Below, one piece after another: positions 1-45,180 of a stretch of 45,180 nt of DNA; position 1 is the first letter of the stretch; every line of letters begins with the position of its first letter. The DNA comes from a virus, in the IMG/VR virus record IMGVR_UViG_3300044608_001855, positions 1-45,180 of that record; one strand, 5' to 3'. The translations under genes were made by a program, and so were the position numbers. A model generated the notes under the pieces. It was not told where the DNA came from. It did not search any database and saw nothing but the letters and a program-made list of their open reading frames with translations.

Positions 1-1357
1 CGCCAGGAGGGGTGACCAGCCGGCAGAGGTAGGCCATCAGGTCGAGGGGCTTGACGGTGGGGTGCGTGACGCCTTGGCGCTCGGCCTTGGTGGCCTTGGC
101 GGTGTAGAAGAAGCGGGCGGCGCTGCCGGAACTCGGCGCCACAGTGTTCGGGGTGCGGTGCGGTGCGTCATTGCCGCGAAGGCCTTTGCGCATATTGGCG
201 CCCGCGTTCTCTCCGCCCCCGCTGGTGGTCACCGGAAACAACTCCACCACCTCGTCGCTGCCGTCGTGGATCAAATTGCTAGGCCATCTTCCGGCGGTCC
301 CGGCACTGCTGCTGTTGGATGCGGCGAGCCTCAAGCTCTTCAGCGCGGCTGTGATACTTGCGCTTGTGATGGCTGATGTGCTCGGGCACTGGCATGAGTT
401 CCAAGTTGCCCAGTCGATTGTCTGTCTTGATGCCGTTTCGATGATGGATGCAATGTCCGTCAGGGATTGTGCCGTTGGCATCCTCCCAAACTCGCCTGTG
501 CTCGAACTGGTAGACGTACTTCCCGTCTTCGTTCCATCGCAGCATCCAGTAACCGGCCTGCAGGTAGCGGGTTGGGGACTGGCGGCCTTTGCGCTCGTCG
601 TCGGCCCTGCAGCCTCGACCGCAATAGACAGGCAGTGCTCCAGTTCTGTGAGTTTGTCGCTTAGCGCCGCAATAGCGGCAGACAAAAAGGCGCGGTTCCT
701 TTGTTCTTCCCATTCACGCCCCCCTGGCGCGATTGATGGCTTAATTCTACAGGCATCCACGTTAATAGCCCCGGTGCCAAACTCCAGAACGTTTGCCGCC
801 ACAGTCCGCCCGCCCAAAGGTTTACGGGCAACCGTCACGGGCTCAAATGATGGTTTAATCGCCGTGCCCCAGCCGGCCCACTGCTGGGCTTCGGGGGTGG
901 CGGGGGCGGTGATGGCTGCACCTTGTTGCCCAATCCTTTGCCACCCGTCATCGTTCATGTTCTGGTTCATGGCCAGCCTACAGGTTGGGTCAAATCCCAC
1001 CACCTCCCGCTCCGCCCCCGCCGCCTTGTCGATCGCCTTCGACACATCCAACGACTTCGGAAATCCCGACCCATAAACCCAGGCGATCATGTCCCTGATC
1101 TCAAAGCCCGCGTCCTCAATCCGAACCGCCATTCGATGCTGCGTCCTGGTCCCGGCAAACGCCAGCAGATGGCCGCCAGGCTTGAGCACTCGCAGGCACT
1201 CGGCCCACACCTCCACGCTGGGCACGTCGTAATCCCACTTCTTGCCCATGAAGGCCAGCCCGTAGGGCGGATCGGTCACCACCGCATCAACGCTGCACTC
1301 CGGCATGGTGCGCAACACTTCCAGGCAGTCGCCCAGGTGCAGTGTGTGGCTTGTCAC
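1..1357 (-). CDS. DNA methyltransferase (N4/N6 amino type), left copy, 3' end cut by window
   Basis: Transfers a methyl group to exocyclic amino groups of DNA bases; probably protects phage DNA from host restriction. Starts at GTG 1357, overlapping the helicase stop (GTGA). The catalytic motif DPPYG is at residues 29-33. A VYGSGFPKSLD stretch typical of phage methylases lies near residue 110, and GTGAINVDACRI follows near residue 195. The C-terminal part carries GRWPSNLIHDGS and HPTVKPLDLMAYLCRLVTPPG; the FxGxG motif expected next lies beyond the window edge but is visible in the right-end copy. DPPY before FxGxG is the beta-type motif order. Read codon by codon, the frame has no stop from 1357 to 1, although a complete HNH gene occupies 279-713 in another frame. 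The ~145 residues encoded by this frame across the HNH region are Ser/Thr/Ala-rich and do not look like methylase. Whether the protein is active with this insert is unknown. Confidence 0.85.
   Translation of the reverse strand, partial: MTSHTLHLGDCLEVLRTMPECSVDAVVTDPPYGLAFMGKKWDYDVPSVEVWAECLRVLKPGGHLLAFAGTRTQHRMAVRIEDAGFEIRDMIAWVYGSGFPKSLDVSKAIDKAAGAEREVVGFDPTCRLAMNQNMNDDGWQRIGQQGAAITAPATPEAQQWAGWGTAIKPSFEPVTVARKPLGGRTVAANVLEFGTGAINVDACRIKPSIAPGGREWEEQRNRAFLSAAIAALSDKLTELEHCLSIAVEAAGPTTSAKAASPQPATCRPVTGCCDGTKTGSTSTSSSTGEFGRMPTAQSLTDIASIIETASRQTIDWATWNSCQCPSTSAITSASITAALKSLRLAASNSSSAGTAGRWPSNLIHDGSDEVVELFPVTTSGGGENAGANMRKGLRGNDAPHRTPNTVAPSSGSAARFFYTAKATKAERQGVTHPTVKPLDLMAYLCRLVTPPG
279..713 (-). 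CDS. HNH homing-type endonuclease nested inside the methyltransferase gene
   Basis: A 144-residue protein. An N-terminal zinc-finger-like module has Cys12, Cys15, Cys31 and Cys35. It is followed by an aromatic stretch (YWMLRWNEDGKYVYQFEHR) and an HNH_3-type core with HCIHHRNGIKTDNRLGNLELMP and a trailing HISHH. Such proteins nick or cut DNA to spread their own gene (homing) in phages. The gene lies wholly within the methyltransferase, in a different frame on the same strand, between the CRI and GRWP segments that are near neighbours in ordinary methylases. Its stop TAG (281-279) overlaps methylase codons. No intron is needed to explain the arrangement, because the outer frame stays open. The basic C-terminus (RRIQQQQCRDRRK) fits DNA binding. 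A second, partial copy lies at 45079-45180. Confidence 0.87.
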   Translation of the reverse strand: MGRTKEPRLFVCRYCGAKRQTHRTGALPVYCGRGCRADDERKGRQSPTRYLQAGYWMLRWNEDGKYVYQFEHRRVWEDANGTIPDGHCIHHRNGIKTDNRLGNLELMPVPEHISHHKRKYHSRAEELEARRIQQQQCRDRRKMA

Positions 1358-2826
1358 AGTCCTGCCCCCACCACACGAGCACGCGGCGCCCTGCTCCGCC
1401 ACCTCTGCCTCAGGCTGATTTTCATCCGAGCCCAACCCTCCGGAGACTGATAACCCCTACGCTGGCCCAAGGCGATCAACTCTTGCAGGGTCTTGCACGC
1501 CCGCTCCTCCTTCTCCCGAGCCTTCTGGGCGGCCAGCTTCTCCGCCTCCACCTGCTGGCGGATGGCCTCCCGCGGATCCAGCTCGATCAGTTCCCCCGGA
1601 ATTACCGTCACCCCCAGAGGCGTCCTCACCTCCTGATGGTGGCTGCACTCCTGGCACACCCCCCGGACGACATCGGAGCTGTAGCACCGTTGACACACCG
1701 GCACGGCTGCCACCCGCGCCAGCGCCCGCTTCTGGCGGCCAGCGTCCAGGTCCCACAAGTGCATCCGCCTGACCAGTGGGCTCCCCAACCCCTCCCGGCG
1801 AGTGTTGCCCACATGATCCAAGATCAGGCAGTCAGGCCAGTTCTGGGCCTTCCTCATCCCTCTCCCGCACATCTGAAGCCACACCCGCAGGGAGATCGTT
1901 CGCCGCTCGCAGAGGATTGCAGCCATCTCCGAAATGTCAACTCCCGCCAACCACATGTCAGCCGTGGCAACCAGATCAAGCAGGCCGCCGTTGAGGCCAT
2001 CCTGCGCCGCGCGACGCTCTCCCCTGGAGCTGTCACCAGAAATTGCCACGGCTCGGTAGCCGGCCTCCCGCCACCGCTCGGCCAGCCGCTCCGCAGCCGC
2101 CACCCCAGAGCAGAATGCACCTGTCGGGCGGATCCTCCCGTCCGGCTCGATGCACAGGCGCCTCCAGTGTTCCAGCGAATCCCCGAGGATCATTGGGCGC
2201 GACATCACATCACCAGCCGCCACCTGGTCAATGTCATCCCCCCGGCGACGAACAGCCAGCAGCTCTGCGGGGGGCGGGAACGAAAACAACCTCACCCGGG
2301 TGAGCCGACCGGCCTCGATCAGGTCCACCGTGTCCGATGTCGGGATCAGGCAGTCGAACCCGCCATCCGTCATCGGGCGACCGTCCGCCCGGATGGGCGT
2401 TGCGGTGATGCCAAGCATTAGCGGGCGATCCAAGGCATCAAGCACGCGCTGATAGGTGGGCGCCACCGCCAGGTCACACTCGTCAATGATCACCAGATCA
2501 GGCGGCACCAACCGATTTAGGCGCCGGGCAGCCGTGGCGACGCTCACAATGTGAACATGGGCCGGGCGAGTGGGCATGCTCCCCCAGATCCAGCTGAACG
2601 CTATCTGGGCCTCCTCCAGTCGGGCGGCGGTTGCATCCAGCAGCGAGTCCAGGTGAGCGAGGAACCAGACCGCCTGGCCCTGCGCAATCCGGCGGCGGAT
2701 GATCTCAGCTGAGACAAACGTCTTTCCCCAGCCGGTGGGCGCCACCAGCACGGGCGCCCGGAAGCCATCGGCAAACGCCTGATCCACCCGCTTGAGAGCC
2801 TCCAGCTGATCCGGGAACAACCCCAC
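1354..2826 (-). CDS. SF2 DEAD/DEAH-type DNA helicase
   Basis: ATP-driven superfamily 2 helicase, about 490 residues with the GTG start at 2826, which overlaps the upstream stop (TGATGTG). An in-frame extension up to 3054 lies inside the upstream gene and looks like noise (Pro/Ser/Arg-rich), so it was rejected. Motif I APTGWGKT is at about residues 28-36, motif II (VIIDECD) near 112, motif III (GITATP) about 30 residues later, and motif VI (QMCGRGMRK) near 317. A Cys pair pattern CQRC...CQEC near 377-395 suggests a zinc ribbon after the second RecA-like domain, followed by a charged helical tail. Its end overlaps the methyltransferase start by four bases, so the two are probably translationally coupled. 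Likely role: unwinding or fork remodelling in phage replication or recombination. Confidence 0.88.
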   Translation of the reverse strand: MGLFPDQLEALKRVDQAFADGFRAPVLVAPTGWGKTFVSAEIIRRRIAQGQAVWFLAHLDSLLDATAARLEEAQIAFSWIWGSMPTRPAHVHIVSVATAARRLNRLVPPDLVIIDECDLAVAPTYQRVLDALDRPLMLGITATPIRADGRPMTDGGFDCLIPTSDTVDLIEAGRLTRVRLFSFPPPAELLAVRRRGDDIDQVAAGDVMSRPMILGDSLEHWRRLCIEPDGRIRPTGAFCSGVAAAERLAERWREAGYRAVAISGDSSRGERRAAQDGLNGGLLDLVATADMWLAGVDISEMAAILCERRTISLRVWLQMCGRGMRKAQNWPDCLILDHVGNTRREGLGSPLVRRMHLWDLDAGRQKRALARVAAVPVCQRCYSSDVVRGVCQECSHHQEVRTPLGVTVIPGELIELDPREAIRQQVEAEKLAAQKAREKEERACKTLQELIALGQRRGYQSPEGWARMKISLRQRWRSRAPRARVVGAGL

Positions 2827-44636: not shown

Positions 44637-45180
44637 TCACAGTCCCAGGCCCAGCTGGGCGCCGTTCATCCTGTGCTCAGCCATGGCGAAGTAGGCCGGA
44701 TCACGCTCGATGCCGATCGCTTGGAAGCCCTCGCTCAGGGCAGCCTTAATCGTGGTGCCACTGCCCATGAACGGGTCCAGCACGATTCCGCCAGGAGGGG
44801 TCACAAGGCGGCAGAGGTAGGCCATCAGGTCGAGGGGTTTCACCGTGGGGTGGGTGACTCCCTGGCGTTCGGCGCGATTGGCCTTGGCCGTGTAGAAGAA
44901 GCGGGCGGCGGAGCCGGAGTCGCCCGCGTAGGCGAAGTTGGACGGCATGCTTAAACCAGTGCCAGACATGATGTTGGTGGCTTTGCCGGCTTTTCTGGTC
45001 GGGTTGATGCTCGCCCCGCCGTTAGTCGTTTGCGGAAACAACCCCACCACCTCGTCGCTGCCGTCGTGGATCAAATTGCTAGGCCATCTTCCGGCGGTCC
45101 CTGCATTGCTGCTGTTGGATGCGGCGAGCCTCAAGCTCTTCAGCGCGGCTGTGATACTTGCGCTTGTGATGGCTGATGTG
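44637..45180 (-). CDS. DNA methyltransferase, right copy, 5' end cut by window
   Basis: Carries the methylase C-terminus: GRWPSNLIHDGSDEVVGLFP, SARFFYTAKANRAERQG-type segment, HPTVKPLDLMAYLCRLVTPP and LDPFMGSGTTIKAALSEGFQ (FxGxG motif), ending in a short tail. It matches the left copy at about 86% in the first 130 aligned bases, and the middle (44920-45040) is much more different, with a 12-base length change. The frame stays open to the window edge through the HNH coding region, as in the left copy. Same function as the left copy; a continuation of the gene or a second cassette cannot be told apart here. Confidence 0.85.
   Translation of the reverse strand, partial: TSAITSASITAALKSLRLAASNSSNAGTAGRWPSNLIHDGSDEVVGLFPQTTNGGASINPTRKAGKATNIMSGTGLSMPSNFAYAGDSGSAARFFYTAKANRAERQGVTHPTVKPLDLMAYLCRLVTPPGGIVLDPFMGSGTTIKAALSEGFQAIGIERDPAYFAMAEHRMNGAQLGLGL
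44789..45180. repeat. Near-repeat of the window start (1-380)
   Basis: Two blocks: 44789-44918 against 1-130 (about 18 mismatches by eye) and about 45028-45180 against about 228-380 (three mismatches noted), with a divergent stretch between. It could mark the overlap of a circular genome or a real duplication. Confidence 0.8.
45079..45180 (-). CDS. HNH endonuclease, right copy, C-terminal part
   Basis: The last ~33 codons of the HNH gene, ending TAG 45081-45079. Two base differences from 279-380 are both synonymous in the HNH frame, while one changes Ser to Asn in the methyltransferase frame. The rest lies outside the window. Confidence 0.8.
   Translation of the reverse strand, partial: HISHHKRKYHSRAEELEARRIQQQQCRDRRKMA

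Follow-up and report, generated by a model that had tools for sequence, protein, structure and literature searches.

The familiar ways in which a selfish endonuclease gene spares its host gene are to splice out of it or to adjoin it. Inteins and group I introns place an endonuclease gene at conserved host motifs and are removed by splicing. In T4-like phages, a homing endonuclease gene lies within a phage gene and, as described in PMC5009743, turns its host into two genes (gene 39/60). The closest described system to the locus reported here is the ShiLan domain of mycobacteriophage methylases, which PMC11855218 (Genes 2025) presents as an out-of-frame HNH gene, with no host-frame stops, that is neither an intron nor an intein and whose disjunct distribution suggests homing; the element is also referenced to PMC9957025 (2023). 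The 2025 paper gives Pacc40 gp60 as a second case, likewise an out-of-frame HNH-like ORF in a methylase, although of a different methylase family and likened here by description alone, and the abstract reports similar sequences in other phages and prokaryotes. A search of open-licence papers, with bioRxiv outside its scope, found no further paper on an out-of-frame or overprinted HNH gene in a methylase. The kind of arrangement is thus already published; what is apparently new here is the insertion site of our locus, one further HNH family (A, below), the breadth of the arrangement and a control, based on copies outside the methyltransferase, for the maintained openness of the host frame.

We analysed a window of 45,180 bases, the whole stretch of an IMG/VR virus record, the first 25 kb of which gave at the megablast level a single phage match, to Synechococcus phage S-LBS1, over 168 bases of the terminase gene only. 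An HNH gene is nested in a methyltransferase gene at its left end, and the features of both ends are as follows.

1..1357, minus strand: N6_N4_Mtase-type DNA methyltransferase gene of the phage, a single open frame from GTG 1357, cut by the left edge of the window
1259..1273, minus strand: catalytic motif DPPYG (motif IV), in the methyltransferase phase
743..757, minus strand: motif DACRI, the final conserved block 5' of the insert, in the methyltransferase phase
719..725, minus strand: AGGGGGG, resembling a Shine-Dalgarno sequence and lying 5 nt upstream of the HNH ATG, which fails a four-base AGGAGG test (see below)
279..713, minus strand: complete HNH_3 endonuclease gene (Pfam HNH_3, 2.4e-14), encoding 144 aa in the -1 frame relative to the methyltransferase
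293..742, minus strand: the insert as read in the methyltransferase frame, a 150-residue spacer replacing a linker of 2-50 residues, by comparison with 80 HNH-free loci
275..292, minus strand: motif GRWPSN, the initial conserved block 3' of the insert, in the methyltransferase phase
47..64, minus strand: C-terminal motif HPTVKP, in the methyltransferase phase
233..750, minus strand: segment near-identical to a divergent methyltransferase locus (L003), with sharp edges at approximate positions, comprising the mobile unit and co-inherited flanks
44637..45180, minus strand: second allele by sequence comparison, with about 100 nt of the 3' end of a near-identical HNH gene and a methyltransferase 3' end with DPFMGSG and stop

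The methyltransferase GTG overlaps an upstream helicase ORF, whose end is at 1354, and the 3' end of the gene is absent from the left end of the window because the gene is cut by the window edge. Its frame matched N6_N4_Mtase (PF01555) in Pfam at 1e-12 and PHROG 67, DNA methyltransferase, at 8.8e-51. Motif I (DPFxGSG) falls past the left edge and is present both in the right-end allele and in a related locus, L004; the Pfam match, motif IV DPPY and motif I DPFxGSG together identify the window gene as an N6_N4_Mtase. The original prediction had claimed a methyltransferase frame without a stop from 1357 to 1, N- and C-terminal methylase motifs in the same phase, and a full 144-residue HNH protein in another frame of the same strand. 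All three claims were borne out, since the coordinates of DPPYG, DACRI, GRWPSN and HPTVKP place the four motifs in a single phase and the HNH ORF runs from the ATG at 713 to a TAG stop at 281-279. This ORF lies between DACRI and GRWPSN, and its 3' end and stop codon overlap GRWPSN in the other frame, as is also the case in the related loci L003 and L004. The gene is small and probably a selfish, DNA-cutting one; the profile of its HNH protein, searched against solved structures, gave no match at E 0.01.

The window resembles the ShiLan domain in that a phage DNA methylase gene contains an entire HNH ORF out of frame, the host frame runs across the insert without a stop, no intron or intein was detected, and the insertion lies at a conserved site where homologues carry no insert. 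Unlike the ShiLan insert, which occupies the KPxxEPxxVARKP block, the window insert is found before GRWPSN, and its HNH protein is shorter, with 144 aa versus 169 for ShiLan (counted from the GTG; PMC11855218 gives 195). The window insertion (here site C) and the ShiLan element (site B; phage ShiLan is locus L101) are thus the same kind of arrangement and different elements.

The two ends of the window (44637-45180, minus strand, versus 1-400) represent two alleles of the methyltransferase 3' region, near-identical over the end of HNH and for some tens of bases past it, then divergent. Either the right-end sequence belongs to another copy or allele of the gene, or the assembly of a mixed population broke there at a population-variable gene.

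The edges of the insert were defined with HNH-free methyltransferase loci found via the N-terminal half of the protein (best 80 of more than 600 matches). By pattern match, the linker from the DGCRV-type to the GRWPAN motifs has 2-50 residues in 77 of these 80 loci, and by eye it is short in the remaining 3, versus 150 residues here. This comparison places the insert edges between DACRI and GRWPSN, in agreement with the earlier proposal of a frame-preserving HNH insertion. Evidence of mobility came from L003, with which the window shares a segment of about 0.5 kb (window ~750-233) while the methyltransferase diverges sharply on either side. The two HNH genes differ at 14 of 432 bases (418/432 identical), and four-fold sites are the same at 56/60 positions in HNH versus 19/34 and 16/27 in the two flanks. 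Because of this near-identity within divergent flanks, the segment resembles a recently mobile unit, and such an insert, near-identical and sharp-edged in divergent methyltransferases, would fit spread between hosts. The remaining relative, L004, carries its insert at the same site as the window, in a locus of 43% GC, with an HNH 60% identical.

An open host frame may arise by chance in GC-rich sequence, in which case the methyltransferase would be broken and only HNH expressed. We used as a null model synonymous shuffles of the HNH gene with phage codon usage and scored the openness of the host frame. The probability of an open frame was 0.19 for the window, 0.15 for L003 and 0.008 for L004. 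For the window alone the open host frame is no more than chance, since the sequence is GC-rich and 19% of shuffles stay open, and its significance therefore rests on relatives, namely L004 and the comparison of further insertion sites, A and B.

Sense-strand HNH genes were found nested at three sites of one methyltransferase family, always in the -1 frame and always with an open host frame. Site C (DACRI/GRWPSN) comprises the window, L003 and L004, and further viral scans for this site gave no nested locus past these two relatives. Site B (the KPxxEPxxVARKP block) comprises Cylindrospermopsis phage Cr-LKS3 (L088), IMG/VR loci and, of the 9 mycobacteriophage loci retrieved through HNH matches, 8 that include ShiLan; the ninth, Mycobacterium phage MKC-IRE-02 (L103), has its HNH in antisense orientation at site C. 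Site A (after FPKSxxxSK) comprises BUCT618 (L090) and 12/12 IMG/VR relatives of its HNH, one of which, L116, is ended by the contig end; among five further loci three were new nested copies and the other two were weak partial matches (32%), not nested. Loci L202, L203 and L198 are weak partial matches, neither nested nor open. By hhalign, the HNH proteins of B and C are related (97.5%), whereas no relation was detected between A and C (2.4%); against Pfam, the A-type HNH of L090 matched other HNH families and that of L111 matched none above the cut-off. Since B and C are related and A shows no relation to C, the arrangement probably arose at least twice. No relatives were found when genome contigs were searched with the C and A HNH alignments, a search by short conserved peptides in which distant relatives can be missed, and BUCT618 had no near match in E. 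coli genomes.

HNH copies of the same family that lie outside a methyltransferase provide a clean control for a claim of overlapping genes. We took relatives of the B-type HNH protein alignment (best 80 of 493) and sorted these 80 loci, blind to openness, by the presence of methyltransferase motifs in any frame within 1.7 kb. Among these best 80, motifs were present on both flanks at 51 loci (47 distinct HNH genes), absent at 27 (22 distinct) and on one side only at 2. The host-frame register was open in 46 of the 47 distinct genes with both flanks, versus 1 of the 22 with none (Fisher p = 1.8e-15), and in 2/2 with one side. The exception, L162, has nested-like motifs, but its gene lies beside a methyltransferase ORF bearing an intein-like insert, as read from the sequence; it is counted as the exception in 46/47 and was omitted from the later nested set, while the two loci with motifs on one side only (L151 and L164, both open) were omitted from both groups.

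We then compared stop codons with the synonymous-shuffle null, for which 44 of the 46 nested B genes were usable. Host-frame stops numbered 0 in these 44 genes, versus 197.6 expected, and 0 in 10 nested A genes, versus 53.5 expected, whereas the 22 copies without a methyltransferase had 86 stops in the same register, versus 84.7 expected. Stop avoidance is therefore seen in nested copies only. Third-frame stops in nested copies were near the null (B, 345 versus 333.3; A, 156 versus 148.5), and because those in copies outside the methyltransferase fell somewhat under it (149 versus 184.9) the null is imperfect. The host frame is open even at 30% GC: three loci of 30-32% GC (L110, L200 and L201) have 26, 31 and 24 third-frame stops, respectively, and none in the host frame. 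The nested loci are related, so that their counts are not independent (29 clusters at 70% identity for B and 7 for A), and the counts carry no tree-based correction; in our judgment the contrast between nested and outside copies is too strong for relatedness to remove.

Also at odds with a broken methyltransferase, the catalytic motifs are mostly kept: motifs IV and I are both present in 7/7 complete ORFs of site A, 29/40 of site B and 1/1 of site C, and the 11 of 40 complete B ORFs that failed this strict motif test include some with variant motifs and some with truncated ends. Despite the values for the window and L003 alone, the shuffle nulls and the nested/outside control led us to reject a chance open frame, which we regard as very improbable. 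Strong comparative evidence from sites A and B indicates maintenance of an open host frame, and the window carries a real nested HNH element. The available text of PMC11855218 yielded no test of selection on the host frame.

In two nested copies, L164 and L200, the host has DPPA instead of the catalytic DPPY, with the frame still open.

The original prediction left two outcomes for the host gene, one long protein with a spacer or a separation of its activities. The first is favoured, as the avoidance of host-frame stops in nested copies, not seen in outside copies, suggests a read-through product; nothing supports separation by splitting, and we rejected gene splitting since both halves are carried by one frame, a difference from the T4-like case. 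Alternatively, some unrecognised intron or intein-like activity could excise the insert from the RNA or the protein, the open frame being a by-product. Such removal was considered for ShiLan too, according to PMC11855218, and it would agree with a sharp insertion at conserved motifs and, at sites A and B, with a host motif that recurs on the far side of the insert. In Rfam searches, however, window positions 1-1500 gave no match even at E up to 1 and five relatives gave none at the gathering threshold, while Pfam on the host frame returned methyltransferase matches only, with no intein domain. These results reject a known group I or group II intron or an intein and support the earlier claim that the element differs from intron- and intein-borne endonucleases. 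Moreover, the insert is almost entirely HNH coding, and a stop-free frame would be needless for splicing, so that removal by an unrecognised activity seems very unlikely.

By eye, a host motif is repeated on either side of the insert at sites A and B (SKxID; EPxxVAxKP; for example in L109, L088 and L101), and such similarity around the ShiLan insert is noted in PMC11855218. At site C there is merely a faint GRxW resemblance.

The comparative evidence therefore points to a mobile HNH gene that is read through as a spacer, probably unspliced. We consider it highly probable that this is an HNH homing element that does not splice and sits inside a phage N6/N4 methyltransferase gene. In this reading the HNH gene, which brings a start codon of its own, has inserted at a conserved methyltransferase motif, the host frame being in phase on entry and exit and held stop-free across the insert. 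With the phase kept and no stops, ribosomes from the methyltransferase start should make one long enzyme, in which a 150-residue spacer, probably poorly ordered, would replace a hypervariable linker and which may retain activity. The HNH protein would come from the methyltransferase mRNA too, through initiation at the internal start in the -1 frame, and may cut insert-free methyltransferase alleles, after which the insert would be copied in by recombination. The host gene would thus seemingly be spared by the genetic code itself, with one stretch of DNA read in two frames.

Internal initiation was assessed by looking 3-12 nt upstream of in-frame start codons for four or more consecutive bases of AGGAGG. 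Such a site precedes 29/46 nested B genes, compared with 4/22 copies outside the methyltransferase and 217/1840 random NTG codons. At site C, L004 has AGGAGG upstream of the HNH ATG, while the window and L003 have the degenerate AGGGGGG. For ShiLan, PMC11855218 reports no detectable ribosome-binding site near HNH; the sequence reads GGAGG-acga-GTG, with GGAGG 4 nt before the HNH GTG. These sequences make internal initiation likely for most of B and for C. It may not apply to all copies, since no site was found before the start of any site A gene (0/11) or of 17/46 B genes, and that of the window is degenerate. The HNH protein could instead be made by -1 frameshifting off the methyltransferase, given that HNH occupies the -1 frame of the host at three of three sites and that site A lacks an AGGAGG-type site. 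This we find unlikely, in view of the start codons at sites B and C, the frequency of AGGAGG-type sites in B and the lower cost in stops of the -1 register than of the other frame (expected per gene ~4.5 versus 7.6 in B and 5.4 versus 14.9 in A), which can therefore explain the frame common to all sites.

We also considered that the spacer may by now contribute to methyltransferase function, for instance as a domain for DNA recognition or regulation, and be more than a tolerated loop. Between the window and L004, host-frame identity was 46% versus 32% expected by synonymous permutation, and the identity excess is larger in nested copies than in those outside the methyltransferase: at a protein identity of 0.5-0.7, it was 0.06-0.10 in nested pairs versus 0.01 in other pairs, which points either to some mild additional constraint or to spread that is more recent. 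The third frame, however, shows a similar excess (39% versus 30% for the same two loci), so that the host-frame excess over it is small, and the ratio of changes at third to first codon positions was similar in nested and other HNH genes and did not separate the groups. AlphaFold models had a low mean pLDDT (56.9 and 55.5); the ends of the methyltransferase core were modelled with confidence, whereas confidence was low for the spacer and much of the middle. As insert-free homologues do with linkers of 2-50 residues, a functional spacer seems rather improbable to us. Stops are excluded, yet the spacer appears weakly constrained otherwise, and its simplest reading, from sequences and models, is a tolerated, translated loop.

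More generally, nested HNH genes of this type probably constitute a broad class of mobile genes that need no splicing to persist, as the host frame is simply read across them. The class would have arisen in two or more HNH families between which no relationship is detectable (A versus C), would occupy three sites in a single phage methyltransferase family and would owe the openness of the host frame to purifying selection; an antisense case in Mycobacterium phage MKC-IRE-02 hints that orientation may not be fixed. Overprinting explains why annotation misses the nuclease: in each of the 10 annotated phage records retrieved here that carry a nested copy on the sense strand (L088, L090 and L095-L102), only the host gene is annotated over HNH.

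In MKC-IRE-02 (L103, 1513-1881), an antisense HNH lies at the site of the window insert (NIDATRI/GRWPTN) with the host frame open; its probability of being open by shuffles was 0.11, which is suggestive only. Members of the same methyltransferase family were also found, as read from the sequence, with an in-frame intein-like insert in StAnnes (L091, 1480-3738) and with an in-frame LAGLIDADG-like insert in Hegedechwinu (L093, 1459-3048).
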